Assembly: GCF_017114995.1 (NCBI RefSeq)
Contig: NZ_JABXKL010000103.1
Span: 1-64,000, forward strand
DNA: 64,000 nucleotides
Direction of reading: 5' to 3'
Origin: Nostoc sp. NMS9
Lineage (GTDB): Bacteria > Cyanobacteriota > Cyanobacteriia > Cyanobacteriales > Nostocaceae
Shown: piece by piece, positions 38,091-60,165 of the stretch
Position numbering within the stretch: the stretch's first letter is position 1
Layout: every line of letters starts with the position of its first letter
Position numbers and translations under genes: made by a program
The notes under the pieces: model-generated
What the model saw: only the letters and a program-made list of their open reading frames with translations
Database searches by the model: none
Told to the model about the DNA's origin: nothing

Positions 38091-39197
38091 ATGATTATAG
38101 TTATGAAATTAGGTACGCCATCAACAGAAATCGAACGTGTTGTTAAAGAACTTAGTCGTTATGAAATCACCCCAGAAGTATGTCAAGGTCAACACAAAAC
38201 AGTAATTGGCTTAGTTGGTGAAACGGCAGAAATTGACACTAGGCAGATTCAAAATCTTAGCCTTTTTATTGAGCAAGTGATCCGAGTAAAAAAACCATTT
38301 AAACGTGCTTCTTTAGAATTCCGCTATGGAGAACATAGTGAAGTGGTTGTACCCACACCTAATGGAGCTGTTACCTTTGGACAAACCCATCCTTTAGTTG
38401 TAGTTGCTGGGCCATGTTCTGTTGAAAATGAGGAAATGATTGTTGAAACAGCACAGATAGTAAAAGCAGCAGGGGCACAGTTCCTACGAGGTGGGGCGTA
38501 CAAACCTCGGACTTCACCTTATGCATTCCAAGGACATGGCGAAAGCGCATTAGGTTTGTTAGCAAAAGCTCGTGAAGCTACTGGTTTGGGTATTATCACA
38601 GAAGTCATGGATGCAGCTGATTTAGACAAGATTGTTGAAGTAGCAGACGTGATCCAAATTGGTGCCCGCAATATGCAGAATTTCTCCCTACTGAAGAAAG
38701 TAGGCACTACAGGTAAAGCAGTCTTATTGAAGCGGGGACTGTCAGCCACAATTGAAGATTGGTTGATGTCAGCTGAATATATTTTGGCAGCAGGCAATCC
38801 CAATGTAATTTTGTGTGAGCGGGGAATTCGCACCTTTGACCGACAGTATACACGGAATACCCTTGATATATCTGCAATCCCTGTCTTGCGGACTTTGACT
38901 CACTTACCAATTATGATTGACCCTAGCCACGCCACCGGGAAATCAGAGTTTGTCCAACCGATGACCTTGGCAGCGATCGCAGCTGGCGCAGATTCCTTAA
39001 TGATTGAAGTTCACCCTAACCCAGCTAAGGCTCTTTCAGATGGCCCTCAGTCTTTAACACCGGAAGCATTTGAAGACTTAATGCTAGAAATGGCTTCTTT
39101 AGGTAAGTTCTTTGGTCGTTGGTCTAAACAACATAGCACCACTGTTACCCCCAAGTTTGCTGCACGAGTTTCTGCCACCGCCAGTAGTGCTTTATAA
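38091..39197 (+). CDS. 3-deoxy-7-phosphoheptulonate (DAHP) synthase with N-terminal regulatory domain
   Basis: The 368-residue protein has an N-terminal ferredoxin-like domain (about 1-75) joined to the catalytic barrel, as in the Thermotoga/class I-beta enzymes. Motifs include VVAGPCSVENEEMI, FLRGGAYKPRTSPYAFQGHG, RNMQNFSLL, LLKRGLSATIEDW and LPIMIDPSHATG. It condenses phosphoenolpyruvate and erythrose 4-phosphate, the first step of the shikimate pathway. As the first gene of a secondary-metabolite cluster it is probably a dedicated copy that increases aromatic amino acid supply. Its ribosome site is AGGAG ten bases upstream. Confidence 0.93.
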   Translation: MIIVMKLGTPSTEIERVVKELSRYEITPEVCQGQHKTVIGLVGETAEIDTRQIQNLSLFIEQVIRVKKPFKRASLEFRYGEHSEVVVPTPNGAVTFGQTHPLVVVAGPCSVENEEMIVETAQIVKAAGAQFLRGGAYKPRTSPYAFQGHGESALGLLAKAREATGLGIITEVMDAADLDKIVEVADVIQIGARNMQNFSLLKKVGTTGKAVLLKRGLSATIEDWLMSAEYILAAGNPNVILCERGIRTFDRQYTRNTLDISAIPVLRTLTHLPIMIDPSHATGKSEFVQPMTLAAIAAGADSLMIEVHPNPAKALSDGPQSLTPEAFEDLMLEMASLGKFFGRWSKQHSTTVTPKFAARVSATASSAL

Positions 39198-39307
39198 GCG
39201 TGCCATTTCCCTGAAATATCTCTGACAAAGCAACAAAGGCACAACTCCCAACAAGGACATCCAATCAGTCCATCATCTGTGCAATCTAAATAATAATTGG
39301 AAGTTCA

Positions 39308-41011
39308 ATGAATACAACATCACTCAACAAAAACAAGACCTTTCAATCTTCTGCAACCTCCGTAGTAAATTCCAGCAAAACTGTAATTGTAGGCAACCAA
39401 GACCTAACGATAGACGAAGTAGCTAGTGTGTCCCGTCATGGTGTTCAAGTACGCCTAACCGATAATCGAGATGTTGTCCAAGGAGTTCAAGCATCGTGTG
39501 ATTACATTAGTGATGCTGTGGAATCTGGTCAACCAATTTATGGCGTGACAAGTGGTTTTGGTGGCATGGCCAATGTTGTCATTTCCCCTGAATCTGCGGC
39601 ACTGCTTCAGAACAACCTAATTTGGTATCACAAAACTGGAGCCGGACAAAAATTACCGCTAGCTGATGTCCGAGCCGCCATGCTTTTGCGTGCTAACTCC
39701 CACTTGCATGGTGCATCTGGTATTCGTCTAGAACTTATCCAGCGTATGGAAACTTTCTTAAATGCTGGTGTTACACCCCATGTATATGAATTTGGATCTA
39801 TTGGTGCAAGCGGTGATTTAGTGCCTTTATCCTACATCACTGGGGCATTGGTTGGTTTAGACCGCTGCTATACTGTTGACTTTAACGGCGAAGAAATCGA
39901 TGCGCCGACAGCGTTGAGTCATCTGGGTTTAGAGCCATTGCAATTACTTCCTAAAGAAGGATTGGCAATGATGAATGGCACCTCAGTCATGACAGGTATT
40001 GCTGCCAATTGTGTCTACGACACCAGAGTTTTATTAGCTCTCTCAATGGGGGCACATGCCCTAGCAATTCAAGGTTTGAATGGTACCAATCAATCATTCC
40101 ACCCATTTATTCATCAACTCAAACCACATTCAGGGCAAAAATGGGCTGCGAACCAAATGCTGAACTTACTAGCAGGTTCACGCTTAGTCCGCGAAGAACT
40201 AGATGGTTCTCACAACTATCGGGGTGGAGATCCAATTCAAGACCGTTATTCACTGCGCTGTTTACCACAATATATGGGGCCGATTGTAGATGGGATCGAG
40301 CAGATTAAAAAACAAATCGAAGTAGAAATTAATTCTGTCACCGACAACCCGCTAATCGATGTTGAGAACCAAGTTAGCTATCATGGCGGTAATTTCTTAG
40401 GGCAGTACATCGGTGTAGGAATGGATCAGCTGCGCTACTACATCGGGTTGTTGGCTAAACATTTAGATGTGCAAATAGCCTACCTGGTAGCGCCAGAATT
40501 TAACAATGGACTGCCAGCATCTTTAGTGGGGAACCGAGAGCGCAGTGTCAACATGGGGCTAAAAGGTCTGCAAATATCTGGGAACTCCATCATGCCATTG
40601 TTAACCTTCTATGGAAATTCGATCGCAGACAGATTTCCTACCCATGCCGAACAATTTAACCAAAATATCAACAGCCAAGGTTTTGCTTCTGCAAACTTAG
40701 CGCGCCAGTCAGTAGAAATCTTCCAGAAATACATGGCAATTGCTCTGATGTTTGGGGTGCAAGCGGTTGATTTACGTACTTACGTCGTTGCTGACCATTA
40801 TGATGCCCGCGCTACTCTCTCACCAGCAACTAGAGATTTGTATATGGCAGTGCGCGATGTTGTTGGACAACCAGCTTCAGCTGACCGCCCTTACATTTGG
40901 AACGACCACGAACAAGCTCTAGACGAACACATTGTCCGCATTGCAGATGATATTGCTTGTGGTGGGCAAATCGTCACCGTGATTAACAACAGTCTTTGCG
41001 CCAACGAATGA
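39308..41011 (+). CDS. MIO-type aromatic ammonia-lyase (Phe/Tyr), altered selectivity residues
   Basis: The 567-residue protein aligns without gaps over its first 170 residues with the Anabaena variabilis phenylalanine ammonia-lyase (recalled sequence). It has the Ala-Ser-Gly triad at 167-169 (GSIGASGDLVPL) that forms the MIO cofactor, Tyr78 (PIYGVTSGFGG), and RYSLRCLPQ and NGTNQSFHP further on. It removes ammonia from phenylalanine or tyrosine to give cinnamate or coumarate. The selectivity pair Phe107-Leu108 of A. variabilis PAL is Tyr107-His108 here (IWYHKTGAG). A histidine in this loop is the mark of tyrosine-using lyases, although normally at position 107. The next gene is a CoA ligase, as expected. 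Confidence 0.93.
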   Translation: MNTTSLNKNKTFQSSATSVVNSSKTVIVGNQDLTIDEVASVSRHGVQVRLTDNRDVVQGVQASCDYISDAVESGQPIYGVTSGFGGMANVVISPESAALLQNNLIWYHKTGAGQKLPLADVRAAMLLRANSHLHGASGIRLELIQRMETFLNAGVTPHVYEFGSIGASGDLVPLSYITGALVGLDRCYTVDFNGEEIDAPTALSHLGLEPLQLLPKEGLAMMNGTSVMTGIAANCVYDTRVLLALSMGAHALAIQGLNGTNQSFHPFIHQLKPHSGQKWAANQMLNLLAGSRLVREELDGSHNYRGGDPIQDRYSLRCLPQYMGPIVDGIEQIKKQIEVEINSVTDNPLIDVENQVSYHGGNFLGQYIGVGMDQLRYYIGLLAKHLDVQIAYLVAPEFNNGLPASLVGNRERSVNMGLKGLQISGNSIMPLLTFYGNSIADRFPTHAEQFNQNINSQGFASANLARQSVEIFQKYMAIALMFGVQAVDLRTYVVADHYDARATLSPATRDLYMAVRDVVGQPASADRPYIWNDHEQALDEHIVRIADDIACGGQIVTVINNSLCANE

Positions 41012-41107
41012 GCAATGGGCAGTGCAAAGTAACGAAAAAAAGAGAGTAGAGAGTGGGTTAATCCCTACTCCCTGCTCCCCATAAAAAATTTCTAATTTAG
41101 TTATAGT

Positions 41108-42628
41108 ATGAACATCGCACACCATGTTGAGCGGGGTCAACGTTTATTTCCTGACAAAATCGCCCTAATTTTTGAAGATACATCTTTTACCTACCATCAG
41201 CTTGACCAGCTAGCCAATCGTATGGCCAATGGTTTACGTGGATTGGGGGTCAAAAAAGGCGATCGCGTGGCCCTATTTCTGCCAAACATTCCAGAGTTCG
41301 TCATTTCCTATCTTGGCATTCTCAAAATCGGCGCAGTGGCTGTCTCAGTCAACGTCATGCTCAAAAGTGCTGAAGTCAGCTTTATTCTCAACGACTGTGC
41401 CGCCAAAGCTGTCATTACCACTCAGTTGCAAAGCGAACAAGTGCAACAGGCAGACTTACCTGAACTGCAACACATTTTAATTGCAGAAGGTAGCGTCACT
41501 CAGGGAATTAGCCTAGTACAACTCATGGAAAATGCTTCTCCTTACGCCCGTGCTGTCGAATTGGATCGCCACGCTCCTGCAAGCATCGTTTACACATCAG
41601 GCACCACAGGTTTCCCCAAAGGAGCTACTCTTTCTCACGGCAACATCATTTCTAATATGTATTCTCACAACCGTTGTTGTGGAATGCAACCGGACGACCG
41701 ATTGCTACTTTATTTACCACTATTTCATTGCTTTGGTCAAAACGCTATTCTCAACGCTGGACTTAACGTTTGTGCAAGTATCATCCTGCAACGTCGGTTT
41801 AAGCTTGAGCAAGCTCTGGAAAACATCAGCACAAATCAAGTGACAATGTTTTTTGGTGTGCCGACGATATACATCAATCTGCTAAATACAGATACCTCTG
41901 CCTATCGCCTTGAGAATGTGCGTTATTACTTTTCAGCAGCGGCACCCATGCCGACGGAAGTCGCCCAGAATTGGCTAGAGAAATATGGAAAATTTATTCA
42001 TGAAGGATATGGTCTCACGGAAACATCGCCATGTGCTTGTTATAACCACGACCTGAAATATAAGCTTGGTTCGATTGGGATGCCAATTGAGAATGTAGAA
42101 ATGAAGATTGTTGATGCTGATGGTCATCCAGTAGAACCAGGCGAAGAGGGTGAAATCGTTATTAAGGGTCCAAACGTTATGCTTGGTTATTGGAATCGCC
42201 CCTTTGAAACCGCCCAAGTCATTAAAAATGGTTGGTTCCATACTGGCGATATTGGTCGGATGGATGAAGACGGCTTTTTCTACATCGTAGATCGCCTAAA
42301 AGATATGATCAACATTTCTGGATTTAAGGTCTATCCTAGTGAAGTAGAAAATGTCATATATCAACATCCTGCAATTGCCGAGGCTGCTGTATTCGGAATT
42401 CCAGATAGGCTCAAGGGTGAGATAGTGCAAGCAAACATCGTACTTAAGTCTGGCTACGCAGTTACAGAAGAACAAATTATTGATTTTTGTTCTCGTCGGA
42501 TAGCAACTTATAAACTTCCCCGTGTGATTAACTTTGTGGATTCACTGCCCAAAAATCCGACTGGGAAAGTCCTCAAGCGAGTTTTACGTCAGAAATTAAT
42601 TCCTCAATACGCTACTATTACCACCTGA
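41108..42628 (+). CDS. Aryl/acyl-CoA ligase (4-coumarate-CoA-ligase-like)
   Basis: The 506-residue ANL-superfamily enzyme has the AMP-binding loop IVYTSGTTGFPKGATLSHGN near residue 158, YGLTETSP near 303, GWFHTGDIGRMDEDGFFYIV near 375 and the C-terminal catalytic lysine in NPTGKVLKR. It should convert the cinnamate or coumarate made by the upstream lyase to its CoA thioester. Similar enzymes include fatty-acyl and benzoate ligases, so substrate is inferred from context. It lies about 96 bases behind the ammonia-lyase and 49 bases before the ThDP enzyme. Confidence 0.9.
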   Translation: MNIAHHVERGQRLFPDKIALIFEDTSFTYHQLDQLANRMANGLRGLGVKKGDRVALFLPNIPEFVISYLGILKIGAVAVSVNVMLKSAEVSFILNDCAAKAVITTQLQSEQVQQADLPELQHILIAEGSVTQGISLVQLMENASPYARAVELDRHAPASIVYTSGTTGFPKGATLSHGNIISNMYSHNRCCGMQPDDRLLLYLPLFHCFGQNAILNAGLNVCASIILQRRFKLEQALENISTNQVTMFFGVPTIYINLLNTDTSAYRLENVRYYFSAAAPMPTEVAQNWLEKYGKFIHEGYGLTETSPCACYNHDLKYKLGSIGMPIENVEMKIVDADGHPVEPGEEGEIVIKGPNVMLGYWNRPFETAQVIKNGWFHTGDIGRMDEDGFFYIVDRLKDMINISGFKVYPSEVENVIYQHPAIAEAAVFGIPDRLKGEIVQANIVLKSGYAVTEEQIIDFCSRRIATYKLPRVINFVDSLPKNPTGKVLKRVLRQKLIPQYATITT

Positions 42629-42677
42629 ATCAGAATTTTAGCCAACTACTCAAGTAACCTAAAAAGAGGTTCATCTC

Positions 42678-44483
42678 ATGCAACAGTCTGATATTAAATC
42701 GAATCAAATCTGGACTAAAAAATCTAATAGTAATACCATTTTCGCGCAACATACAGGCTCTTCTTTAGTACTATCTCCGAATGAAAAGTCTAGCCAATCA
42801 GAATCTACTGGGCTAACAGTTGCAGATGCTCTAGTCAAAATGCTAGAAGATTTAGGAGTACGCCATGCTTTTGGTGTTTCTGGTGGTGCGATTGCCTCAC
42901 TCTGGGCAAGCTTAGAACATAGCTCCATCGATGTGCTACACTTCCGCCACGAATCAGGAGCAGCCTTTGCCGCGATTGAGTCGTACTTTGCAAATAATCG
43001 CCCTGTTGTTGTGTTTACTACCACAGGCCCAGGCATTACTAACGCTCTGACTGGACTGTTCGCGGCACGTTGGGATGGTGCGAAGGTGATTTTATTATCT
43101 GCTGCTACTGCTGCCCCACAACGTGGACGCTGGGCTTTCCAAGAAACTAGTACTTACACAATGCCAAGTGAAGTTTTTTGTACTTCTGGCTCGCTGTTCA
43201 ACTATGCTACTAGTATTGAGACTGGTGATGAATTGCCAGAAATTGCTCGCAGACTTGCTGTAGGTTTGGCACGCCCAGGGGGATTTGTGACTCATTTGAG
43301 TGTCCCCACAATTATCCAATCCAGTTTCTTCAGAGCATCATTGCCTCGCGTGAGTTTCTCGCAAACTCTGTCCACTGCCGGAGAGGATGCGATCGCCAAA
43401 TCTGTACAGTTACTTTCGGAAAGTCCGTTTGCCATTTGGGTAGGCTATGGCGCTAGAGGCGCAGCCGAGGAAATCCGCCAACTGGCGGAGAGAACCGGAG
43501 TTGCCATCATGTCTTCGCCGCGTGGTAAGGGCATCTTTCCTGAAAATCATCCGCAGTACTTGGGCGTAACTGGCTTTGGCGGGCATAACTCGGTTGTAAA
43601 ATATATGCAAGAGCAACGTCCAGGGCGTGTACTGGTTTTGGGAACCCGCCTTGGTGAGTTTACCTCCTTCTGGAGTCCAGCGATGGTTCCCGCAAAAGGA
43701 TTTGTCCATGTAGACATTGACCCAGAAGTGCCGGGAACCGCATATCCATCTGTTGAGACTTTATCCATTCAATCAGATGTGCAAGTCTTCGTCAAAGAAC
43801 TACTCAAGTACTTTCCTAAGCGTTCTGGACACAGCCCTGTATTTCCTAATCCTCAGCGTGTCCCACTCCTACCCCAAGCCGAAGGTCTAGTGCGCCCAGA
43901 TATACTGATGGATACAATTCAACAAGTATTTATTGATCGGGGCGATGCAGTAGTGATGACCGAAGCAGGAAACTCTTTTGCTTGGGGCACCCACATACTG
44001 CGATTTACTAGACCAGATCGCTATCGGGTTAGCACTGGGTTCGGCTCGATGGGTCATGCGGCCACTGGTGTCTTGGGTGCTGCATTGGCACGAAATAACA
44101 AAGCCGTCGCTATTCTTGGGGATGGTGCGATGCTAATGAACAATGAGGTCAGCACCGCTGTCAAATACCAGATTCCCTGTGTCTGGATTGTCTTGAATGA
44201 CTCAAGCTATAACATGTGCGCTCAAGGCATGACATTGTTGGGATTTAAAGGTGTAGATACGCAGATGCCACCAACGGATTTTGTAGCAATTGCCCGAGGT
44301 ATGGGAGCCGATGGCATTCGTGTTGACAGGGAAACTGACCTCCAGTCTGCTTTAGAGAAAGCATTCGCTGCTAACGTGCCGTTCGTTGTTGATGTCATCA
44401 TTAATGATACACAACACGCGCCGTTTGGCAACCGTATTCAGAGTTTGATTGAACAAGGTGCTAAAGAAACAAATACTAAGTAA
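42678..44483 (+). CDS. Thiamine-diphosphate-dependent acetolactate-synthase-like enzyme
   Basis: The 601-residue protein has the three ThDP-enzyme domains. The catalytic glutamate is Glu92 in FRHESGAAFAA, and the ThDP-magnesium motif is ILGDGAMLMNNEVSTA ending near IVLNDSSYN. It resembles acetolactate synthase and the scytonemin enzyme ScyA, which joins two 2-keto-acid-derived units. Here it would decarboxylate a 2-keto acid and add the resulting carbanion to a second unit. The first 45 residues are poorly conserved and polar. It sits between the CoA ligase and the KAS III-like gene, as in cyanobacterin-type clusters. Confidence 0.9.
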   Translation: MQQSDIKSNQIWTKKSNSNTIFAQHTGSSLVLSPNEKSSQSESTGLTVADALVKMLEDLGVRHAFGVSGGAIASLWASLEHSSIDVLHFRHESGAAFAAIESYFANNRPVVVFTTTGPGITNALTGLFAARWDGAKVILLSAATAAPQRGRWAFQETSTYTMPSEVFCTSGSLFNYATSIETGDELPEIARRLAVGLARPGGFVTHLSVPTIIQSSFFRASLPRVSFSQTLSTAGEDAIAKSVQLLSESPFAIWVGYGARGAAEEIRQLAERTGVAIMSSPRGKGIFPENHPQYLGVTGFGGHNSVVKYMQEQRPGRVLVLGTRLGEFTSFWSPAMVPAKGFVHVDIDPEVPGTAYPSVETLSIQSDVQVFVKELLKYFPKRSGHSPVFPNPQRVPLLPQAEGLVRPDILMDTIQQVFIDRGDAVVMTEAGNSFAWGTHILRFTRPDRYRVSTGFGSMGHAATGVLGAALARNNKAVAILGDGAMLMNNEVSTAVKYQIPCVWIVLNDSSYNMCAQGMTLLGFKGVDTQMPPTDFVAIARGMGADGIRVDRETDLQSALEKAFAANVPFVVDVIINDTQHAPFGNRIQSLIEQGAKETNTK

Positions 44484-44497
44484 TCAACAGGAGATTT

Positions 44498-45640
44498 GTG
44501 ATGATTAACCCAGCAGTAGGCATTCGCTCAATTGCACTAACCTTCCCTAGCATTGTACGTACAAACGACTATTGGCAAAATAAATACCCAAACTTAGTAA
44601 ATGTTGCCGAGCAAAAAGCCTTAGCCAAGTTGTTTTCCGCCAGTAACTCCAATGAAAAAACTTGCGAGTTTGACCAAGAAATGATACCTTATATGTCAGA
44701 CCCATTCCGTGGAGCCAATGAGCGCCGGGTACTAGCAGCAAATGAGTCTTCTATGACTTTGGAGAAGCGCGTGGCATTTGATGCGATCGCTGCCGCAGAG
44801 ATGTCCACCGATGATCTAGACTTGATGATAGTCACTTCCCTATTCCCCGAACGGATTGCCCCCGGGAATGCTTCCTTCTTGGTGGGGGAAATGGGCTTGC
44901 GTTGTCCTGCCTGGAATCTTGAGTCTACTTGCTCTAGCGCTTTGGTGGCTCTCCAGACTGCTAATGCCCTAGTGCAAACTGGAGCGTACCGCAATGTATT
45001 AGTGGTCATCTCTTGCATATATTCTCGCTTTGTAGATGAAGACGATACTTTATCTTGGTTTATGGGCGACGGTGCTGGAGCCTTTGTAGTCAGCGCGCTC
45101 AAACCTAACCAAGGAGTCTTAGGAACTAAAATCATTCATACTGCTGCAACCTGCGGAGCCTTCTTTAATGAACTCACATTAGACGCTCAAGGCAACCCAC
45201 GGATGCGTATTCAGAATGGCAAAAACGCCAGCCAGCAGATCCGGGGTACAGGTGTAGAGTTTGTGCGTGCTTGCAGTCTGGGTGCGGTTGAAGCTGCTGG
45301 AGTCAGTCTCAATGATATTCAATTCTTTGCTTTCAATACACCCACTGCTTGGTATGCAAACTTGTGTGTGCGCGCCTTAGGCATTGATCCTGAGCGCACA
45401 ATCAATCTCTACGCGCAGTATGCAAACATTGGGCCAGTACTTCCCATCGCCAATATGTACTATGGCGCACAAATGGGCAAAGTCAAAGAAAACGATTTAG
45501 TGCTTGTTTACACTATTGGTTCTGCTTCTACTGCTGTTGCCACCGTCATGCGCTGGGGTGATGTCAAACTTGGGACTGTTCCAGCTCCTGCACTTTACCA
45601 TAACCAACAGGAAGATAAAATTCCCCTGTTAACTCGGTAA
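44498..45640 (+). CDS. Divergent KAS III-like synthase (candidate furanolide synthase)
   Basis: The 380-residue thiolase-fold protein has the nucleophile Cys145 in LESTCSSALVALQ and the FMGDGAGAFVVSA loop of beta-ketoacyl-ACP synthase III. The catalytic His of FabH (HQAN) is not present: the matching stretch reads FFAFNTPTAWYANL (residues 277-290), with Asn280 or a neighbour in its place, while an Asn (YANIGP, residue 310) remains near the second position. This departure suggests a condensation without the usual decarboxylation. By position and company it fits the furanolide synthase role described for cyanobacterin. A good ribosome site AACAGGAG precedes ATG 44501, so the first methionine may be at 44501. 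Confidence 0.85.
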   Translation: MMINPAVGIRSIALTFPSIVRTNDYWQNKYPNLVNVAEQKALAKLFSASNSNEKTCEFDQEMIPYMSDPFRGANERRVLAANESSMTLEKRVAFDAIAAAEMSTDDLDLMIVTSLFPERIAPGNASFLVGEMGLRCPAWNLESTCSSALVALQTANALVQTGAYRNVLVVISCIYSRFVDEDDTLSWFMGDGAGAFVVSALKPNQGVLGTKIIHTAATCGAFFNELTLDAQGNPRMRIQNGKNASQQIRGTGVEFVRACSLGAVEAAGVSLNDIQFFAFNTPTAWYANLCVRALGIDPERTINLYAQYANIGPVLPIANMYYGAQMGKVKENDLVLVYTIGSASTAVATVMRWGDVKLGTVPAPALYHNQQEDKIPLLTR

Positions 45641-45665
45641 GTGTATTCCTTAAGATGGTATTATA

Positions 45666-46505
45666 ATGAAGGCTAGAAAAATGGTCGTATCAGTTGCCTA
45701 TTTAGGGCCAAAGGGAACTTACGCAGAAGCTGCTGCCTTAGCTTATACTAATCAGTTGGCAGAGGAACTGGCACAAACAACCCAGCTATATCCTTATCCT
45801 AGTATTGCCGAAACATTAAGAGCGTTAGCCCGAGGACAGGCTTATCTGGCAGTCGTACCAGTGGAAAACTCTGTTGAAGGTAGTGTCTCTAACACGTTGG
45901 ATACTCTGTGGCAACTGCCTACATTGCAAATTCAACACTCCTTAGTCTTACCGATTTCCCATGCCCTAATTTCATGTGCGAAGTCTTTGGCAACTATCCG
46001 CACCGTTTATTCTCATCCCCAAGCCCTCGCCCAATGTCAGGGGTGGTTGGAGCGGTCTCTACCATCTGTGGGACTGGTTCCGACCAACGCTACCACAGAG
46101 GCACTCCATTGTTTGTCAGAAGACAAGACAGCCGCCGCTATCGCATCTTTGAGAGCAGCCGAACTCTACAATTTGCCAGTTCTGGCTTGCCCAATTAATG
46201 ATTATCCAGAAAATCATACCCGTTTCTGGGTGCTAGGTTTAGAATCATCAAAGAGTGGAAATCAAACTTCCCTGGCTTTTAGTGTTCCCACCAATGTTCC
46301 TGGCGCACTTGTGAAACCGTTGTTTTGTTTTGCTAGTCGGGGCATTAATCTTAGTCGGATTGTATCTCGTCCGACCAAGCGATCGCTCGGCGAGTATCTT
46401 TTCTTCGTGGATTTAGAAGCTGATCCTAGGGAGGCTGCTGTGCAATCTGCCCTAGAAGAATTAACAAGCTGTACAGAAACGCTAAAGATTTTTGGTAGTT
46501 ATTGA
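45666..46505 (+). CDS. pheA: Prephenate dehydratase with ACT domain
   Basis: The 279-residue protein opens with VAYLGPKGTYAEAAAL, has the catalytic VPVENSVEGSVSNTLD and the TRF motif in NHTRFWVLG, and ends in an ACT domain (GALVKPLFCFASRGINLSRI, then VSRP). The normal phenylalanine-binding ESRP sequence reads VSRP here, which might weaken feedback inhibition; this is inference. The enzyme turns prephenate into phenylpyruvate, the precursor of phenylalanine. It follows the KAS III-like gene closely and is probably a cluster-dedicated copy. Confidence 0.92.
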   Translation: MKARKMVVSVAYLGPKGTYAEAAALAYTNQLAEELAQTTQLYPYPSIAETLRALARGQAYLAVVPVENSVEGSVSNTLDTLWQLPTLQIQHSLVLPISHALISCAKSLATIRTVYSHPQALAQCQGWLERSLPSVGLVPTNATTEALHCLSEDKTAAAIASLRAAELYNLPVLACPINDYPENHTRFWVLGLESSKSGNQTSLAFSVPTNVPGALVKPLFCFASRGINLSRIVSRPTKRSLGEYLFFVDLEADPREAAVQSALEELTSCTETLKIFGSY

Positions 46506-52976: not shown

Positions 52977-52998
52977 TACAACTATCAAAAAAATAGGT

Positions 52999-53610
52999 AT
53001 GTGTATGACTATAATTAATAAATTAATTTTTTTAAGTATCGGAACAATTTGTTCTGCTGTCTTTTTAGGAACGCAATCTGCATATGCTCATGGGCTGCAC
53101 TTACATCCAGATCCAGAAGATATGCCCTCAGGCTCTTATCAGCCACCTTTAACACCAATCACTGCATCACAAGACCCTCGCTTCAGTCCTGGTTCCGTAG
53201 TTTATGGAGCCGTACAACCCCTAGGAAATGGAAATGTCCGGACTAGGTTAAAACTGAACAATCTGGGAATTCCGACAGATATTGGTGTGACATTTACGAA
53301 AGCATCATTGTCAGATTTGCCCAACAATGATGATGATTTGGGAGAATATCCTTTGAAATTAAAGTTATTGGATGGTATTGGTAACTCGACATTTGAATAT
53401 GAGTTGCTCTTTTCTAAAGCAGCTGCATCTACACCATTCACTCACATGGCACTAAACTGGAATCCTTTAGGTCATGCACCAGCATGAGTAACTACATTAC
53501 CGCATTTTGATTTCCATTTCAATCTGTTTACTCCAGAAGAACGAGATGCAATTACGGCAGATAATTTAGCAAATTTTATTGCTAAAGCGTTTAAAACTAT
53601 TATTTTTTAG
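52999..53610 (+). pseudogene. DUF5602-like secreted protein interrupted by an in-frame TGA
   Basis: The frame starts with a signal peptide (KLIFLSIGTICSAVFLGTQS) and reaches TGA at 53485-53487 after WNPLGHAPA. It then continues without a break as VTTLPHFDFHFNLFTPEERD, AITADNLANF to the TAG at 53608. The HFDFHF motif is the conserved metal-like site of this family, and other members read HGHEPPGVY at the break, so the TGA probably arose from a GGA glycine codon. The C-terminal half of the family (about 100 residues more in the neighbour) is also missing. The shortened 162-residue product could still be made and secreted. Confidence 0.7.
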
Positions 53611-53631
53611 TGATGCAAAAGGATAATTTAT

Positions 53632-54915
53632 ATGCATACTAACTTTACACATAGATTCACTGTAGATGGTGAAGACACTATTGATCATCCAACTGAGTCA
53701 TTAGATACAAATTGTAAAATTCTTGATACTAAGCAAACTACTTGTTGTATAGTAGGAGGTGGGCCAGCTGGAGCAGTATTAGCACTACTTCTGGCACGCC
53801 AAGGTATTTCTGTGATGCTGTTGGAAGCGCACAAAGACTTTAATCGCTACTTTCGGGGCGATACGATTCACTCATCTGTTTTAGAAGTCATGGATGAACT
53901 TGGTCTAGCTGATCGCTTACTCCAACTTCGTCATACAAAAACATATAAATATATCACTCAAACAGTTGATGGTCCTGTAACCTTTGCTGATTTTAGTCGG
54001 CTTAAAGGCAAGTTTCCCTACATGATGATCATGGAACAGGTACGCTTTTTAGAATTCATTACAGCGGAGGCAAAACAATATCCAAATTTTCAGTTGGTCA
54101 TGGGTGCCAATGTCCAAGAAATTCTTGAGGAAGATGGTGTAATTTTGGGCGTGCGCTACCGGGGTCAAGGTGGTTGGCACGAAGTCCGCGCAGACTTGAC
54201 AGTTGGTGCTGATGGTCGTAGTTCCCGCACTCGTCATTTAGCAGGTTTAAAATTGAATAAGCATGAGGCACCAATAGATGTTCTTTGGTTCCGGTTGCCA
54301 CGCTACCCTGATGAACCAGAAGAAGAATTAGGTGAATTTGGACAGGGTTGTCTGTTAGTTCTGACTAATCGTTTTGAGTACTGGCAAGTGGGGTACATCA
54401 TTCCTAAAGGCCATTATCAACAACTCCATGCAGGCGGATTAGAAGCATTACGCCAGTCTATTGCTCAGACAATGCCAATGTTGGCAGATCGAGTGGATTA
54501 TCTCAAAGATTGGAAGCAGGTGGCATTACTCCCAGTTGTTTCTGGTCTTGTAGAACGTTGGTATAGACCAGGTTTATTACTCATCGGTGATGCGGCCCAT
54601 GTGATGTCACCAATTGGTGGTGTTGGAATTAACTATGCTATTCAAGATGCTGTTGTAACAGCTAATGTACTCAGCAATCCTCTAATTAATAAACAGCTAC
54701 AGCAGCGTCATCTAGCAACTGTACAACGACAACGCGAATTACCGACACGAATTATTCAATGGTTCCAGTCTTTATCTCATAACCAAGTTATTGTGAAAAC
54801 CTTTCAATCAGGTAAGCCTTTTAAACCACCAAAAATTATGCTTTTACCATTCATGCGTGACCTACCAGCCGCATTGATGGGTTATGGTGTTTGGCCAGTT
54901 CATGTGAAAAATTAA
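53632..54915 (+). CDS. FAD-dependent aromatic monooxygenase (group A)
   Basis: The 427-residue protein has an N-terminal extension of about 35 residues, then the FAD motif CCIVGGGPAGAVLALLLARQ, the DG motif DLTVGADGRSSRTRHLAG and the GD motif LLIGDAAHVMSPIGGVGINY, the three marks of p-hydroxybenzoate-hydroxylase-type flavoproteins. It probably hydroxylates or otherwise oxidises the aromatic or lactone part of the cluster product, using NAD(P)H and oxygen. The neighbouring SnoaL-like gene follows after 27 bases and may be co-translated. Confidence 0.88.
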   Translation: MHTNFTHRFTVDGEDTIDHPTESLDTNCKILDTKQTTCCIVGGGPAGAVLALLLARQGISVMLLEAHKDFNRYFRGDTIHSSVLEVMDELGLADRLLQLRHTKTYKYITQTVDGPVTFADFSRLKGKFPYMMIMEQVRFLEFITAEAKQYPNFQLVMGANVQEILEEDGVILGVRYRGQGGWHEVRADLTVGADGRSSRTRHLAGLKLNKHEAPIDVLWFRLPRYPDEPEEELGEFGQGCLLVLTNRFEYWQVGYIIPKGHYQQLHAGGLEALRQSIAQTMPMLADRVDYLKDWKQVALLPVVSGLVERWYRPGLLLIGDAAHVMSPIGGVGINYAIQDAVVTANVLSNPLINKQLQQRHLATVQRQRELPTRIIQWFQSLSHNQVIVKTFQSGKPFKPPKIMLLPFMRDLPAALMGYGVWPVHVKN

Positions 54916-54942
54916 TTATCTTAAAAAACCAGGTATCTAAAA

Positions 54943-55395
54943 ATGAGTGAACAAGAAAATGTACAAATAGTAGAGCAAGTTTGTATCGCTTTTGAACAAG
55001 GTAATATTGCTTATTTGCTAGCAACCTTAGCAGAAGATATAGAGTGGTATATAGTTGGCTCTCAAAAATATATTCCGCTTGCAGGTAAATATCACGGACG
55101 CGATCAGATAGCGCAAATTTTTAGTAAAGTGGGTGAATACTTAGAACTACATCAATTTCAAGCACAAGAATTTATTGCTCAAGGCGATCGAGTTGCTGTG
55201 TTTGGACACGCTCTTGGTCGTGTTAAACCAACCAATAGTTCACTAGAATACGATTGGGTACATGTTTATACTCTGTATGATGGCAAAATTATTAAGTTTC
55301 GTGAATATTTAGATACAGCCACGATGTTCGCAGCTTTTAGTAGTCCTGAAACTACTTCTATAAAAAGCGAAGAATATATATCTGCATCCAAGTAA
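54943..55395 (+). CDS. SnoaL/NTF2-like protein
   Basis: The 150-residue protein has the NTF2-like alpha+beta cone pattern: a helix EQVCIAFEQGNIAYLLATLA, DDIEWYI-type strand (EDIEWYIVG), KYHGRDQIAQIF, and a C-terminal sheet with VHVYTLYDGKIIKFREYLDT. SnoaL-like proteins act as cyclases, dehydratases or isomerases in natural product pathways, and Asp/His residues in the pocket are compatible with that. It is 27 bases behind the monooxygenase, so a joint tailoring step is likely. The specific reaction is not known. Confidence 0.78.
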   Translation: MSEQENVQIVEQVCIAFEQGNIAYLLATLAEDIEWYIVGSQKYIPLAGKYHGRDQIAQIFSKVGEYLELHQFQAQEFIAQGDRVAVFGHALGRVKPTNSSLEYDWVHVYTLYDGKIIKFREYLDTATMFAAFSSPETTSIKSEEYISASK

Positions 55396-55464
55396 ACTGA
55401 AGATTTAGGGAACCATAAAGAATAGCTTGTGATTTCTGATTGGTTCACACCTCATCTTGGTATA

Positions 55465-55506
55465 TTGGGACTTAAACAAAAATTAAGCCCAAATGTAGGC
55501 CAAACT
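55465..55506. repeat. 42-bp repeat with hairpin potential, copy 1
   Basis: The segment starts TTGGGACTTAAACAAAAATT and ends GGCCAAACT; it can form a hairpin from TTGGGACTTA and TAAGCCCAA. A similar 42-bp copy lies at 57376-57417, directly after the next intact gene. It may be a terminator or the scar of an insertion. Confidence 0.6.
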
Positions 55507-55530
55507 CAGTAAACCAAAAATTCCCTCCAG

Positions 55531-55737
55531 CATCGTGGTATCCGTATAACAATTCCACGACTCTCCAACGAACCACGTCGCGGTTCTTTTAGCCGTGAAA
55601 TCTATCGTCAACGCAACGTTGTTGAACGCGCTATCAACCGAATCAAGCAGTTTCGTCGCATTGCGACCCGATATGAAAAACTTGCTGCCAATTATACAGC
55701 CATGATAACGATCGCCTGCATTTTATTATGGTTATAG
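55531..55737 (+). mobile_element. IS5-family transposase C-terminal remnant
   Basis: The frame has HRGIRITIPRLSNEPRRGSF, YRQRNVVERAINRIKQFRRI and LAANYTAMITIACILLWL before TAG at 55735, the C-terminal end of IS5-type transposases with the catalytic Glu in NVVERAINR. The upstream two thirds are missing. Confidence 0.82.
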
Positions 55738-55758
55738 TTTGAAAACACGCCCTAGTAA

Positions 55759-56003
55759 AATCTGCGGCTGATTTTGCCAAAGGTATTTGCGGACGGGGGA
55801 TTGAGAATCGTCTTCATTGGGTTAAGGATGTGATTTTTAATGAAGATCATTCGACTATACATAAGGGTAACGCCCCTGCAAATCTATCGGTACTCCGAAC
55901 GATCGCACTCAATATTTTGCGCCGAAATGGTTATTCCTCCATCACCTCAGCCCAGAGATTTATCTCTAATGATATTGACAAACTCTTATCCTTTGTGGAA
56001 TGA
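55759..56003 (+). mobile_element. ISAs1-family transposase C-terminal remnant
   Basis: The frame reads RGIENRLHWVKDVIFNEDHS, KGNAPANLSVLRTIALNILR and ends at TGA 56001, matching the C-terminal (ENxLHWxLDVxFxED) end of ISAs1-type transposases. The N-terminal part is absent. It lies directly after an unrelated IS5 remnant. Confidence 0.82.
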
Positions 56004-56393
56004 AACAGCCTTCTTTAAAAGGGGGTCGCCGCAGGCGGGGGGATCTTAACCGAACCGTATTGTGAGTTGATGCACACCTTGGACATTCGATGGCGATCAC
56101 ACTAATTCATATCTTTATTCTGCAAAGCCAATTTCTTTCTCACTACACCCACTCAGCCACACTTCACACCCAAAAGCTTTATAGATAATGGTTTTGCCGT
56201 TAATTTAGTGGTATTCCCTCATAACCAGAGTGTATATTTGTTAGGTTTGCTAAATCAACATTTTAATTGCTTGTTTTTGCATAGCAATTGTGTATGTAGT
56301 TGCATATTGTTTGAATATAAATGTTGTAGTATATCTTTGAATGTGAATTTTAATGTAAAGCCATCTTGAATCTCTTAATAAGGAGCTGCTGGC
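56004..56393. other. Intergenic region upstream of the reductase gene
   Basis: A GGGGGTCGCCGCAGGCGGGG repeat is at 56022. After it the sequence becomes AT-rich and probably carries the promoter for the reductase gene. The ribosome site AATAAGGAG lies just before 56394. No gene is seen. Confidence 0.45.
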
Positions 56394-57374
56394 ATGACCA
56401 CAGATAAAACAAAACTAAGGACTACTGACACAATGCGAGCTGCTGTAATTCGTCGCTTTGGCGGGCCAGAAGCATTGAAAGTAGAACTTATCCCCATACC
56501 TCAGCCAAAGCTAGGTGAGGTCTTAGTACGTATTCGAGCAGCAAGTATTAATCCCTTAGACTACAAAATTCGTAGTGGTCAATTACAGTTACTAACCGGG
56601 AAGAATTTTCCGCGTATTCTTGGCTGTGACTTTGCTGGCGAAGTTGTGGATACTAACTCAACTGAAACTGAATTCGGAGTAGGTACACGCGTATTTGGCA
56701 TGCTTAATGGTTTTAAAGGAGGGGGTTATGCCGAGTATGCCAGTGTGCCAGTAGAGTGGTTAGCTCACACACCTACAGTTTTGACAGACCAAGAAGCTGC
56801 TGCTATACCAGTTGCTGCACGTACGGCATGGAAGGCATTACGTAATTTACTTCATAAAGTACAACCCCAGTCTGTGCTAATTAATGGTGCTTCTGGTGGG
56901 GTAGGGACGTTTGCAGTACAGCTAGCTCGAATAATAGGTGTTCATGTGACTGCTGTGTCTAGCCGCGATGCCTTTAATTTAGTTGAGCAACTGGGAGCTG
57001 AGCGTTTACTGGACTATAAAGAGACAGACTTTATCAAAAGTAGCGATCGCTACAATTTAATCTTTGATGTTGCAGGAAATCGTAATTTTTGCAAATGCGC
57101 TCCTATTTTAAATCCTAAAGGGCTCTACATCACTACCGCACCAAGTTTCCAGGGAGTTTTAGCCTTTGTTTTCGCTCAACCATTTACTGGTAAAAAAGCG
57201 CTAATTCTAGACCTTCGCCCAGACGGTACTGATTTAACGAACATTGCTCGTATGGTTACAGAAAATAATCTGCGTCCTATTGTAGGGAAAATTTTTCCCC
57301 TAAGTGAGGTAGCAGCAGCACATACTTATGGAGAAACCAAACATCCGCGTGGCAAAATAATTTTACAGATTTAG
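56394..57374 (+). CDS. Zinc-independent quinone-oxidoreductase-like reductase (MDR family)
   Basis: The 326-residue protein has the medium-chain dehydrogenase fold: RRFGGPEALKVELIPIPQPK, ILGCDFAGEVVD, and the NADPH motif LINGASGGVGTFAVQLAR near residue 165. The structural-zinc cysteines are missing, so it belongs to the QOR/enoyl-reductase group. It could reduce an enone or exocyclic double bond of the pathway product. It is separated from the SnoaL-like gene by transposase debris, so membership of the cluster is likely but not certain. Confidence 0.85.
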   Translation: MTTDKTKLRTTDTMRAAVIRRFGGPEALKVELIPIPQPKLGEVLVRIRAASINPLDYKIRSGQLQLLTGKNFPRILGCDFAGEVVDTNSTETEFGVGTRVFGMLNGFKGGGYAEYASVPVEWLAHTPTVLTDQEAAAIPVAARTAWKALRNLLHKVQPQSVLINGASGGVGTFAVQLARIIGVHVTAVSSRDAFNLVEQLGAERLLDYKETDFIKSSDRYNLIFDVAGNRNFCKCAPILNPKGLYITTAPSFQGVLAFVFAQPFTGKKALILDLRPDGTDLTNIARMVTENNLRPIVGKIFPLSEVAAAHTYGETKHPRGKIILQI

Positions 57375-57870
57375 TTTGGGACTTAAACAAAAATCAAGCC
57401 TAAATAAAGCCCAAACTGGCTTTATAAGCAAAAGAGTGGAATCTACACCTCTTGAACTTTTATGGGCGATCGCAATTACTGCAATCCAGATTTTAAAGCA
57501 ATACAGTTCAGAATAAGCAACAAAAGCCTGATGTTGAGACGCGATAAATCGCGTCTTTCAAAACCAATTATCTATACCAATAACCCTTAACCCTAGCGTA
57601 TTGGATTTTAAAGTGTTTTTTCAGACTTCTTGCATAAATGTCAAAGAAAGACGCGATAAATAAGTATCATCCGTGACTATTCCTTGCCAAACTTGAATCT
57701 CGTAAGTCAAGTTTCAGATTAATAAATCTACATTTCTTCATAGATGCAGACATAGATGCTTAAAACTTGACTAAACAAGATAAATATTAAAGCAATAGAG
57801 TCTATGTCTGCACTTATAACATCAATCCAAAACTAGATTGCCATCAATTCAGCTCGAAAGGAGAACAACA
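57375..57870. repeat. Intergenic region with a repeat copy and palindromes
   Basis: Copy 2 of the 42-bp repeat is at 57376-57417. AGACGCGATAAATCGCGTCT near 57536-57556 is a perfect Nostoc palindrome. A strong ribosome site AAAGGAGAAC at 57858 fixes the next start at ATG 57871. No gene is seen. Confidence 0.55.
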
Positions 57871-59619
57871 ATGACAGAATATAATAGCTTTCAACAGACA
57901 CCAGCCAACAAATCGAGTAAGTCATTGTGGGTGGTTGGGGACTTAGTTAAATTTATCTCAACTGGCGAAGATACTGGTGGTAAATACGATCTCTTTGATG
58001 CTTACGTTCCATCAAATGTCGGGACTACACCGCATATCCACCTTCAACAAGATGAAGGATTTTACATTGTCGAGGGGACTGTAAAGTTTCAGTTGAATGA
58101 TAAAGTTATTACTGCAACTCCTGGAACTTTTGTGAATGTGCCCAAAGGGGAAACCCACGCCTATCGCAATTTTGAAGATAAGCCAGCGAGAATGATCATC
58201 CAAGGTATCCCCTCCGGGCTTGACAAATTAATTGAGGATACGAGTCGTCCAGGGACAGACATATCTGCGGCTTTTCCGCTATTTACAGATGAAGGACTTG
58301 ATAAAATCGTGCAAGCCTTTAAGGACAACGCATCAGTACCCCTAGACTCAATAATTTTTGCTGGTACTGAATACAGCGTCAATGAAGATGGTTCTCCTAT
58401 AGCAGCAGTAACTTTAATCCGCCCATTAGATGATACAGGGGCAGTTGGCGCTACTATCACTTTGAAAGATGGTACTGCTAAATATCTCGAAGATTATAAC
58501 GGTTCTCAGCAGATAAAGGTTAACTTTGCTGACGGAGAAAGAGTTAAAGTTGTAAATATTCCGATTATTGATGATAATTCAATCGAAGCAAATAAAACTA
58601 TCAACCTCACCTTGAGCGATGTTACAGGCGGCGCAATTATTGGGCTATTGCAGAATACGGCTACTCTCACAATTGTAGACAATGACGCTCGACCCAAAGG
58701 AAAAGATGGTGTTCTTCTGGTTGGAGATGATAGTGATAACATCCTTACGGGTGGGAAAAGCAGTGAAAACATTATTGGTGGAAAGGGAAACGACCTCCTT
58801 ACAGGTGGCGGGAATATAGACCTATTTATAGTTCAACTCGGTAATGGCATCGACACCATTACTGACTTCGGTGGTGTAGGAACAGGATCTCGTCCATCTT
58901 CAGGCGTATCTGCGGAAATTGATACTCTAAAATTTGAGGGTAATGGGCTGACTGCTAGAAATCTGCTCTTAACTCAGAATAAAGATGACCTGCTCATAAC
59001 CTTTGAGGGAGTTGAGAATACTGGGGTCGTCTTGCAAAATTTTGCCTTACAAAACCTAGATAACCTTCGCAAAGCCACAGGTGCATCGGTGGATATTGGC
59101 AATATTTTGTTTAACGGGCAGACGGGGTTTCAAGACAGCTTTGATGTCTTGAATGCCAACGAACAAAGGAGTAGTGTTTACAGTCGTAACTCGGTAACAT
59201 TCCTGAACGAGCTTAATAATAATACTAGTGGCTTTGACAAATCTAATGATGTTATTAACGGTCAGGGTGGCAATGACTATCTGTGGGGGTTGAGTGGTGA
59301 TGACATACTCCGGGGCGGTGCTGGTAATGACACCCTTGTAGGGGGGTTTGGTTGGGATACTCTGATTGGTGGCAGTGGCAAAGACACATTCTCCTTTACA
59401 TCTGGATCGGGGGTTGATACCATTGTTGACTTTACTAATGGGGAAGATTCTATTGGGCTTTTGGGTGGTCTGACATTTACTGATTTAACAATCTACCAAG
59501 GTACCGGTGGTAGTGTAAATGATACTTTGATTAATATTACCAGCAGTAATGAGCCTTTGATGATCTTAAGTGGGATACAAGTCAATACTATTACAAGTGC
59601 TGATTTCTTGATTGTGTAG
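57871..59619 (+). CDS. Cupin-Calx-beta-RTX multidomain protein
   Basis: From ATG 57871 the 582-residue protein has an N-terminal cupin (about 20-125) with a full metal site in PHIHLQQDEGFYI and ETHAYRN, a Calx-beta domain (about 160-275, with YSVNEDGSPIAAVTLIR and ATLTIVDND) and C-terminal RTX repeats (GGKGNDLLTGGGN; GGNDYLWGLSGDDIL, GGAGNDTLVGG). The cupin is related to cupin 1 of the protein at 49097, and the RTX part to the protein at 46852, so it looks like a fusion of the two types found in this cluster. It is probably exported by type I secretion. It may bind or transform the product outside the cell; this is inference. Confidence 0.85.
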   Translation: MTEYNSFQQTPANKSSKSLWVVGDLVKFISTGEDTGGKYDLFDAYVPSNVGTTPHIHLQQDEGFYIVEGTVKFQLNDKVITATPGTFVNVPKGETHAYRNFEDKPARMIIQGIPSGLDKLIEDTSRPGTDISAAFPLFTDEGLDKIVQAFKDNASVPLDSIIFAGTEYSVNEDGSPIAAVTLIRPLDDTGAVGATITLKDGTAKYLEDYNGSQQIKVNFADGERVKVVNIPIIDDNSIEANKTINLTLSDVTGGAIIGLLQNTATLTIVDNDARPKGKDGVLLVGDDSDNILTGGKSSENIIGGKGNDLLTGGGNIDLFIVQLGNGIDTITDFGGVGTGSRPSSGVSAEIDTLKFEGNGLTARNLLLTQNKDDLLITFEGVENTGVVLQNFALQNLDNLRKATGASVDIGNILFNGQTGFQDSFDVLNANEQRSSVYSRNSVTFLNELNNNTSGFDKSNDVINGQGGNDYLWGLSGDDILRGGAGNDTLVGGFGWDTLIGGSGKDTFSFTSGSGVDTIVDFTNGEDSIGLLGGLTFTDLTIYQGTGGSVNDTLINITSSNEPLMILSGIQVNTITSADFLIV

Positions 59620-59727
59620 CTCTCTTTAACTAATTTGATATTGCCAAATAAAACTATCAACAATTGAGATTTACAGTTGGCAATTGCTGTATACAGAAAA
59701 AACCTAAAACTCAACCTTAAAATTGAT

Positions 59728-60165
59728 ATGGATCAACTAACCTTTTCAACACACATAGATCAACATTCCAGCATTGCAAAGGTAGTGGGAGAATGGCGAG
59801 TCCGGGGACTTCGAGGCGCAACGACAGTCAGCTACAACTCTATAAAAGCAATTACTGAGGCTGTAGATGAGTTATTAGACGCCTTAGAAACAAACAATGT
59901 TTTAGACTCTGAGGAAATCGTCAGTGTTACCTTTTCTGCAACTCCAGACTTAGATGCAATGTTTCCGGCTGCGGTGGCACGTCGTCGTCCTGGTTGGGAT
60001 CAAATTCCTTTACTAGATGTGCAACAGATGCAGGTTGCCAATAGCCTCGATCGCTGTATTCGGGTGCTAATCCACTTAAACACTCCTCTACCCCAGAATG
60101 CATTACGCCCAGTCTATCTGCATCGTGCTGCTCAGTTACGTCCAGATATAGCATTGTTAGGTTAG
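59728..60165 (+). CDS. aroH: Monofunctional chorismate mutase (AroH type)
   Basis: From ATG 59728 the 145-residue protein has EWRVRGLRGATTVSYNSIKA, the LDSEEIVSVTFSATPDLDAM segment and IRVLIHLNTPLP, covering the active-site arginine and glutamate of the AroH (Bacillus-type) pseudo-barrel mutase. It turns chorismate into prephenate, the substrate of the prephenate dehydratase at 45666. The earlier TTG at 59677 is unlikely as a start. It follows the cupin-RTX gene on the same strand, so it may be the last cluster gene or a neighbouring housekeeping gene. Confidence 0.9.
   Translation: MDQLTFSTHIDQHSSIAKVVGEWRVRGLRGATTVSYNSIKAITEAVDELLDALETNNVLDSEEIVSVTFSATPDLDAMFPAAVARRRPGWDQIPLLDVQQMQVANSLDRCIRVLIHLNTPLPQNALRPVYLHRAAQLRPDIALLG

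Follow-up and report, generated by a model that had tools for sequence, protein, structure and literature searches.

Sixteen genes in the genome of Nostoc sp. NMS9 raise the question of whether they encode a furanolide pathway and, if so, of which kind. They lie at positions 38091-60165 of a 64,000-nucleotide stretch of contig NZ_JABXKL010000103.1 (hereafter, the window), within contig C41 (76,923 bp) of the 8.09 Mb genome. An initial annotation had proposed a furanolide cluster of the cyanobacterin/nostoclide type, with a gene order running from a DAHP synthase through to a reductase, and every gene that it named was found, on the + strand and in that order; the last of the sixteen, an AroH-type chorismate mutase, went unnamed in its text. 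Judged from sequence, the locus very probably encodes a furanolide core, in a biosynthetic gene cluster of the cyb/ncl/mac kind that forms a sub-lineage of its own and whose predicted product, a lactone related to the natural herbicide cyanobacterin, is by analogy probably chlorinated. The furanolide part of the initial label is supported, all four signature enzymes standing in the expected order alongside a halogenase of the RadH/CmlS type; the nostoclide part is not supported.

Gene families were assigned by Pfam and NCBIfam profile searches. Comparisons draw on the best 80 of 353 confirmed relatives of the β-ketoacyl-acyl carrier protein synthase III (KAS III)-like enzyme in a named genome collection (the named loci), and on samples of 386 cyanobacterial genomes (phylum sample), 53 genus genomes, this one included, and 388 genomes of the order. 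The genus group also includes Nostoc sp. LPT (G422), Nostoc mirabile CHAB5784 (G397) and Nostoc sp. FACHB-892 (G411). Gene content was compared at E <= 1e-6 across 24 loci that have a CoA ligase of this family with a ThDP enzyme, a lyase or both (23 named loci plus L049, with L065 left out), whose flanks of ~10 kb on each side are shorter where contigs end, so that counts are lower bounds. Duplicate clusters among the loci are L048 and L062, L059 and L153, and L057 and L155. The Cyb, Ncl and Mac systems are represented by proxy loci L063, L064 and L049, of which L063 and L049 were matched by gene content.

Core genes and their enzymes

The first six genes (38091-46505), separated by gaps of 14-110 bp, are as follows, ThDP denoting thiamine diphosphate and CoA coenzyme A:

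38091-39197, +, DAHP synthase in the macA position, aromatic precursor supply (PF00793, 5e-85; NF009933, 672.8 bits, cutoff 486)
39308-41011, +, aromatic amino-acid ammonia-lyase of the cyanobacterial phenylalanine ammonia-lyase (PAL) family (PF00221, 6.8e-150; ASGD (MIO) motif; YH at 107-108)
41108-42628, +, CoA ligase in the CybC position, expected to be a 4-coumaroyl/cinnamoyl-CoA ligase (AMP-binding PF00501, 7.1e-104)
42678-44483, +, ThDP-dependent acyloin synthase, ScyA-related, in the CybE position (NF035927, 1001.2 bits; Glu92, GDG481 motif)
44498-45640, +, furanolide-synthase-like KAS III enzyme in the CybF position (Cys145 and Asn310 kept; Asn280 replaces the FabH His)
45666-46505, +, prephenate dehydratase, extra copy, phenylpyruvate supply (PF00800, 1.7e-56)

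The gene features of a furanolide cluster are found together: a lyase, a CoA ligase of predicted substrate, a CybE-type ThDP enzyme and a CybF-type KAS III enzyme, in the B-C-E-F order, a set whose expected product is a trisubstituted butenolide. All core frames are full length, and the catalytic motifs inspected are intact.

Two proteins carry the assignment. Relatives of the KAS III-like protein form two separate sets in the phylum sample, one at 44-64% identity and almost always whole-length, the other FabH-like, at 25-35% over the common part; across all samples searched, the family spans identities of 44-88%. The catalytic triad of FabH is Cys-His-Asn. In an alignment of 82 rows (the 80 named loci, the window and a second copy in this genome), Cys145 and Asn310 are each kept in 82/82, and the FabH-His position holds Asn in 79/82 (two Tyr, one His). 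The window protein failed the fabH model (100.3 against a cutoff of 292.1). The ThDP enzyme passed the ScyA-related model NF035927 (cutoff 1000) and failed both the ScyA model NF035923 (938.3, cutoff 1020) and the acolac_lg model (211.7, cutoff 538.35), while the ScyA of the same genome, on contig C76 and 62% identical to it, passes the ScyA model with 1125.4. Judged by the family separation, the active-site residues and the model scores, these two proteins are, as far as sequence can tell, not a FabH, an acetolactate synthase or a ScyA. The initial annotation had named core proteins belonging to primary acetolactate synthase and FabH as the outcome that would speak against it; that identity was considered and rejected on the model scores and the replacement of His by Asn280 at the active site.

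Relatives of the CoA ligase are 62-83% identical across the 24 compared loci, a set chosen in part for having this ligase; the best PDB matches of the lyase are the PAL structures 2nyn/2nyf, and the DAHP synthase is 99% identical to that in the Nostoc sp. LPT locus L057.

The genome holds further members of the synthase family. A second ThDP-KAS III pair (L037, G000:C50:120001-140000, at 9695-14420), 65% and 53-55% identical to the window proteins, has after it a GDSL-type esterase, whose end by eye resembles PEP-CTERM, and a short-chain dehydrogenase/reductase-like gene, and neither a lyase nor a CoA ligase is matched there; a fragment of some 90 residues at 53% identity (L038, G000:C18:60001-75000, at 8979-9299) is apparently a pseudogene of a third synthase-like gene. 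Such pairs lacking lyase and CoA ligase (type B) make up 35/82 rows, with a GDSL-motif open reading frame directly after the KAS III gene in 19/35. They belong to the same families as the ThDP and KAS III-like enzymes of the window but have no CoA-thioester supply genes that we found in the locus.

Gene order and phylogenetic position

The order lyase-CoA ligase-ThDP-KAS III recurs in 20/80 named loci, too often for a chance arrangement, and a DAHP synthase lies upstream in 13 of these 20 (two partial). A CoA ligase and a ThDP enzyme stand beside the synthase in 22/80 (the 20 with a lyase, and two ending before one). The other named loci comprise two with lyase and CoA ligase but no ThDP enzyme, 36 with a ThDP enzyme only (two on short contigs), 16 with a different CoA ligase (~30% identity) and four with none of the core partners. 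Beyond the core, the 24 compared loci contain TyrA in 11 (one partial), a cytochrome P450 in 10, a chorismate mutase in 8, a tyrosinase in 4, TTHB210-like proteins in 3, and a halogenase at >=50% identity in 2, both from Brasilonema UFV-L1; an RTX protein, a cupin-RTX protein and a bicupin are each matched over more than half their length in one locus (shorter cupin matches occur elsewhere), and a prephenate dehydratase in one, as a remnant.

In a tree of the 82 synthases built with a quick method, the window and its counterparts from Nostoc sp. LPT, N. mirabile and FACHB-892 form one fully supported group, apart from the clade of L064 and from L061-L063. The tree of the ThDP enzymes (63 rows) again joins the window to these three Nostoc loci, then to L060, L061 and L080 (support 96), and likewise keeps it apart from the L064 clade. 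As to the type labels in the synthase tree, two rows labelled B whose contigs are short, L058 and L068, fall within A clades, and L065 and L076, called A, end before the lyase.

The nearest relative, L155 of Nostoc sp. LPT, shares 94% DNA identity with the window over 32593-40974 and 82% over 41107-45648. Between its lyase and CoA ligase it has a P450 gene (L155 12645-14162) that is absent from window positions 40974-41107, and because the drop in identity begins at the P450 site, this single comparison points to recombination or gene exchange there. Upstream of the cluster, window positions 31288-32047 hold transposase-like broken frames, seen by eye as two overlapping - strand open reading frames.

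Sixteen synthase relatives (L074, L078, L082, L083, L086, L088-L090, L097, L098, L100, L102, L109, L118, L124, L127) form one well-supported clade. Beside them stand a different CoA ligase (~30%), in most cases a ~440-aa protein and often very large open reading frames, with no ThDP or lyase match; from sequence, they possibly represent a separate pathway. The synthase family is far wider than the named pathways, and includes the common ThDP-KAS III pair with no nearby thioester supply.

Putative tailoring and exported-protein genes

Ten genes follow the core, with wider gaps after 46505 (328, 253, 229, 998 and 463 bp among others, the 998 bp preceding the medium-chain dehydrogenase/reductase (MDR) gene):

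46834-48843, +, RTX calcium-binding repeat protein, presumably secreted (PF00353, 8.3e-71, 10 stretches; relative in L060)
49097-50197, +, exported two-cupin protein (bicupin) with a PEP-CTERM anchor (Cupin_2, 5.3e-26; PEP_CTERM, 22.4 bits, cutoff 16)
50427-51947, +, flavin-dependent halogenase of the RadH/CmlS type (WIWAIP at 218; Lys75 aligned with RadH Lys74)
52068-52976, +, TTHB210-like protein, probably exported (TTHB210-like, 20.4 bits, below the cutoff of 26.6; PFE_CTERM, 20.6 bits, below the cutoff of 24)
52999-53487, +, short TTHB210-like protein, perhaps a truncated duplicate of the gene before it (PF18197, 28.1 bits, cutoff 26.6)
53632-54915, +, FAD_binding_3 oxygenase (PF01494, 1.1e-49)
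54943-55395, +, SnoaL-like protein (PF12680, 3.3e-15)
56394-57374, +, MDR/quinone-oxidoreductase-like enzyme, a putative tailoring reductase and tentative member (PF13602, 5.7e-20; PIG3, 172 bits, below the cutoff of 296.8)
57838-59619, +, cupin + Calx-beta + RTX protein (same-architecture relative in furanolide locus L060)
59677-60165, +, AroH-type chorismate mutase, whose start may be the ATG at 59728 (PF07736, 5.8e-44; TIGR01796, 149.9, cutoff 82)

The halogenase, by family a putative CybI counterpart, supplies the feature expected of cyanobacterin-type halogenation. Its closest solved structures are RadH (6e-78), whose catalytic residue is Lys74, and CmlS (1.6e-71), and the WxWxIP motif is kept as WIWAIP. 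Relatives at 53% and 55% identity occur in L063 and L073, two furanolide clusters of Brasilonema UFV-L1, and the order genomes add three further matches at E <= 1e-100, of which those in G590 and G625 are new. On the sequence data so far, the halogenase family may extend beyond furanolide clusters. One 6 kb contig (G424:C2) carries a halogenase relative together with a 59% relative of the FAD_binding_3 oxygenase. That oxygenase is an extra paralogue in the window, of a gene found in 46/53 genus genomes (this one included) at about 60-63%, and a weak cross-match to it (22%) appeared in L063 in a separate comparison. Matches to the SnoaL-like gene occur in 5/53 genus genomes; one of these is the present genome, and the other four match at 34-46%.

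The cupin/RTX and DUF5602-like genes had been set aside by the initial annotation as extra and unexplained. They recur in part in furanolide loci: TTHB210-like proteins in 3/24, the RTX and cupin-RTX pair in 1/24 and the bicupin in 1/24. The short TTHB210-like protein is 33% identical to the first part of the protein that precedes it. In the phylum sample, the TTHB210-like protein gave seven matches in five genomes, itself included. Three at 39-43%, one from G251 and two from G030, are encoded 2.5-3.9 kb downstream of a furanolide synthase; another three, at 27-33%, come from two genomes with no synthase match at E <= 1e-20. A 58% relative belongs to the FACHB-892 cluster (L059), and others are found in L049 and L062/L048. 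Since relatives lie downstream of synthases and in the FACHB-892 cluster, the TTHB210-like family is, by these sequence associations, a real though not constant partner of furanolide clusters. A structural model (predicted local distance difference test score 73.9, from 6 sequences) gave no Foldseek match against the PDB at E <= 0.001 (best 0.58), and no paper on TTHB210 or DUF5602 was found in the literature searched, which was mostly open-access.

The bicupin has a 48% relative next to the KAS III gene in L059/L153, and its three full-length relatives at 44-48% in the genus genomes are one in a furanolide cluster (G411) and two on contigs with no listed KAS III relative (G410:C542, G394:C68), so that its sequence-based association with furanolide clusters is weak. 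Hydrococcus sp. Prado102 (L060) has relatives of the RTX and cupin-RTX genes side by side. The cupin/Calx-beta part of the window's cupin-RTX protein (57838-59619) is matched in 21/386 genomes, this one included and with at most six candidates scored per genome; the other matches nearly always cover either the cupin or the Calx-beta part alone, with one, at 35%, over residues 22-278. The FACHB-892 cluster (L153/L154, G411:C96:306001-346000) is followed by coproporphyrinogen oxidase, glutamyl-tRNA reductase and Rieske oxygenase genes, which, with a bilin reductase in L049, raise the question of pigment-related self-protection.

Whether these ten genes belong to the cluster can itself be disputed. 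They could adjoin a furanolide core (38091-46505) by happenstance, as unrelated secreted proteins and oxidoreductases (46834-60165), a reading consistent with the larger gaps after 46505, with the lack of matches to the FAD_binding_3 oxygenase, SnoaL-like and MDR genes in the 24 loci, and with the final 553 bp of the L155 contig, past its prephenate dehydratase remnant, which find no match in window positions 30001-48000. A scan of 37200-57000 for promoter-like (35 against 44.5 expected) and terminator-like sites (17 against 16.0) was uninformative on operon limits. However, the chorismate mutase, halogenase, TTHB210-like, bicupin, RTX and cupin-RTX genes each have a relative in at least one furanolide locus elsewhere, and we consider two such chance neighbours rather unlikely.

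Precursor supply, named clusters and a proposed pathway

The selectivity pair of the window lyase, residues 107 and 108, is Tyr-His (YH); PMC5651878 gives FL as a known PAL motif and YH as a known motif of tyrosine ammonia-lyases (TAL). Among 25 lyases, 18 have YH (including the window and the nostoclide-like L064, with two rows representing the same cluster) and 7 have FL, including the mac-like L049. TyrA is found in 0/7 FL loci versus 10/17 YH loci (Fisher p = 0.019 over 24 loci, relatedness ignored). The window has a prephenate dehydratase where 11/24 compared clusters have TyrA, the dehydratase being present in 1/24, as a remnant in the nearest relative. It is a second copy, 66% identical to that on G000:C92; among the other 52 genus genomes, only G422 has a second copy, truncated and matching residues 154-279 only, and the two matches in G068 look like two pieces of one gene. 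AroH-type chorismate mutase relatives occur in 8/24 loci. In PMC13288894, cinnamoyl-CoA is inferred to be preferred for the α position of the mac product. Given the YH lyase and the extra dehydratase, set against the TyrA pattern, the sequences point to a tyrosine-derived α group and phenylpyruvate-derived β or γ groups, unlike the nostoclide I/II pattern. Our structural prediction, a 4-hydroxybenzyl-type group at α and at least one unsubstituted phenyl at β or γ in a probably chlorinated furanolide not of the nostoclide I/II type, is plausible but tentative.

Three named clusters frame this locus. The cyb cluster comes from Tolypothrix sp. PCC 9009 (PMC8777810, PMC12481558, PMC13288894, PMC12395478; deposited as GenBank BK059219, as cited in PMC13288894), and its CybB deaminates tyrosine. 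L063, from Brasilonema UFV-L1, has the core with an O-methyltransferase, an NAD(P)-binding protein, two Rieske proteins and a halogenase, and by content fits the cyb outline in PMC8777810 and PMC12481558. The window shares with cyb the four core enzymes, the lyase being of the tyrosine type by its motif (YH also in L063), and a flavin halogenase, but has no match to the O-methyltransferase, NmrA-type and Rieske genes of L063 and, unlike cyb, carries the dehydratase, FAD_binding_3 oxygenase, SnoaL-like, MDR, cupin, RTX and TTHB210-like genes. The mac cluster comes from Nodularia sp. NIES-3585 (PMC13288894). L049, with a DAHP synthase, the core, a chorismate mutase, a tyrosinase, an NAD(P)H-binding protein and a bilin reductase, fits that description and was matched to it by content only. 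The window and mac have in common the DAHP synthase, the four core genes and the chorismate mutase, as well as a TTHB210-like protein in L049 (43-44%); L049 differs in its FL (PAL-type) lyase, tyrosinase and bilin reductase, and no halogenase match was found in 20 kb of it.

The third, a putative nostoclide-like cluster reported for Nostoc sp. 210A in PMC5987646 (here L064), shares with the window the order DAHP synthase-lyase-CoA ligase-ThDP-KAS III, the chorismate mutase and the YH lyase. A true nostoclide-type cluster, whose product would carry an α-benzyl derived from phenylalanine, an isopropyl at β and a chlorinated hydroxybenzylidene at γ, would agree with a host from the same genus group as the named Nostoc genomes and with the presence of a halogenase and a prephenate dehydratase, and the YH lyase, being common to L064, cannot by itself separate the two. 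Yet the synthase and the ThDP enzyme fall outside the L064 clade, the P450, TyrA and multicopper oxidase of L064 are unmatched in window positions 30001-64000, and L064 has no halogenase match in 21 kb, whereas the window has both halogenase and dehydratase. The initial annotation had counted supply of both phenylalanine- and tyrosine-derived units in favour of nostoclides; with a YH (TAL-motif) rather than an FL lyase, an α-benzyl from phenylalanine is not expected. Since L064 itself has YH, the feature may be wrongly drawn, and the motif argues against the α-benzyl prediction rather than against kinship with the nostoclide-like cluster. On the two tree positions and the lyase pair we rejected nostoclide membership, and regard such a product as quite improbable.

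A decayed or silent cluster is more improbable still. In its favour are the absence here of the P450 carried by the closest relative, the apparent truncation of the second TTHB210-like gene and the truncated dehydratase of that relative; against it, the core frames and inspected motifs of the window are intact, as described above. Finally, the ThDP enzyme is related to ScyA, which could place it in a pathway akin to that of scytonemin or in another acyloin pathway built on a ScyA-type enzyme. That reading is extremely unlikely and was rejected on the model scores, the ScyA equivalog model having failed while the C76 copy passes; in addition, a general family scan found no Glu/Leu/Phe/Val-dehydrogenase (ScyB-type) family in the sixteen genes, and the lyase, CoA ligase and KAS III-like enzyme are not known from the scytonemin gene set.

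Several observations weigh against a halogenated furanolide cluster of sixteen genes. Likeness to the characterised Cyb, Ncl and Mac enzymes was established via proxy loci; the ThDP enzyme exceeds the ScyA-related cutoff by only 1.2 bits; and the YH motif is a sequence-based correlation with substrate. The lyase-bearing loci (lyase and CoA ligase) do not form one clade in the synthase tree, in which the window clade sits beside L060, L084 and the sixteen synthases with another CoA ligase and no ThDP enzyme (support 87, weak), and the ThDP tree drew long-branch warnings, for rows other than that of the window. Halogenase relatives at 50-54% lie in G400, G424, G426, G414 and G397 on contigs with no listed synthase relative, two of these five contigs being only 6 and 4 kb. 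The extra dehydratase could simply raise phenylalanine. The FAD_binding_3 oxygenase, SnoaL-like and MDR genes may be late or unrelated additions, because they are matched in 0/24 loci, are placed after exported-protein genes and, in the case of the oxygenase, represent a paralogue of a common Nostoc gene. In E. coli BAP1, the four mac core genes and the whole mac cluster performed alike in the experiments of PMC13288894, which suggests that accessory genes may matter little.

With the furanolide reading retained, a pathway may be proposed by analogy with the characterised one. DAHP synthase, chorismate mutase and the extra dehydratase would direct carbon toward phenylpyruvate; the YH lyase would yield mainly 4-coumarate, which the CoA ligase would then activate. 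The ThDP enzyme would join two α-keto acids, one of them probably phenylpyruvate, into an acyloin that the KAS III-like enzyme would O-acylate with coumaroyl-CoA, closing the butenolide via a Morita-Baylis-Hillman/1,4-hydride-shift cascade such as that reported for CybF in the core biochemistry of PMC13288894 and PMC12395478. The flavin halogenase would probably chlorinate the phenol ring afterwards, and the FAD_binding_3 oxygenase, SnoaL-like and MDR enzymes are likely to act in later oxidation or reduction steps. That the cupin, RTX and TTHB210-like proteins might act on the product outside the cytoplasm, by binding, storing, exporting or modifying it, is a guess, and the weakest of these steps. 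A bolder proposal, in which a rewired supply (tyrosine-type lyase plus dedicated dehydratase) is coupled to an extracytoplasmic arm that binds or finishes the product, with TTHB210-like proteins as general furanolide accessory factors, seems to us unlikely.

The core recipe of this cluster is already known; its combination of supply, finishing and exported-protein genes is new among the clusters compared, and no description of it was found in the covered portions of the furanolide literature, mostly open-access (PMC13288894, PMC12395478, PMC12481558, PMC8777810, PMC5987646). Furanolides are photosynthesis inhibitors, algicides and cytotoxic leads (PMC12395478). To the three cyanobacterial clusters named in the literature, as covered here (cyb, ncl and mac), the window adds a further sub-lineage with halogenation, offering a testable change in precursor supply, with prephenate dehydratase in place of TyrA, and a lead on unassigned furanolide-cluster proteins through the TTHB210-like family.

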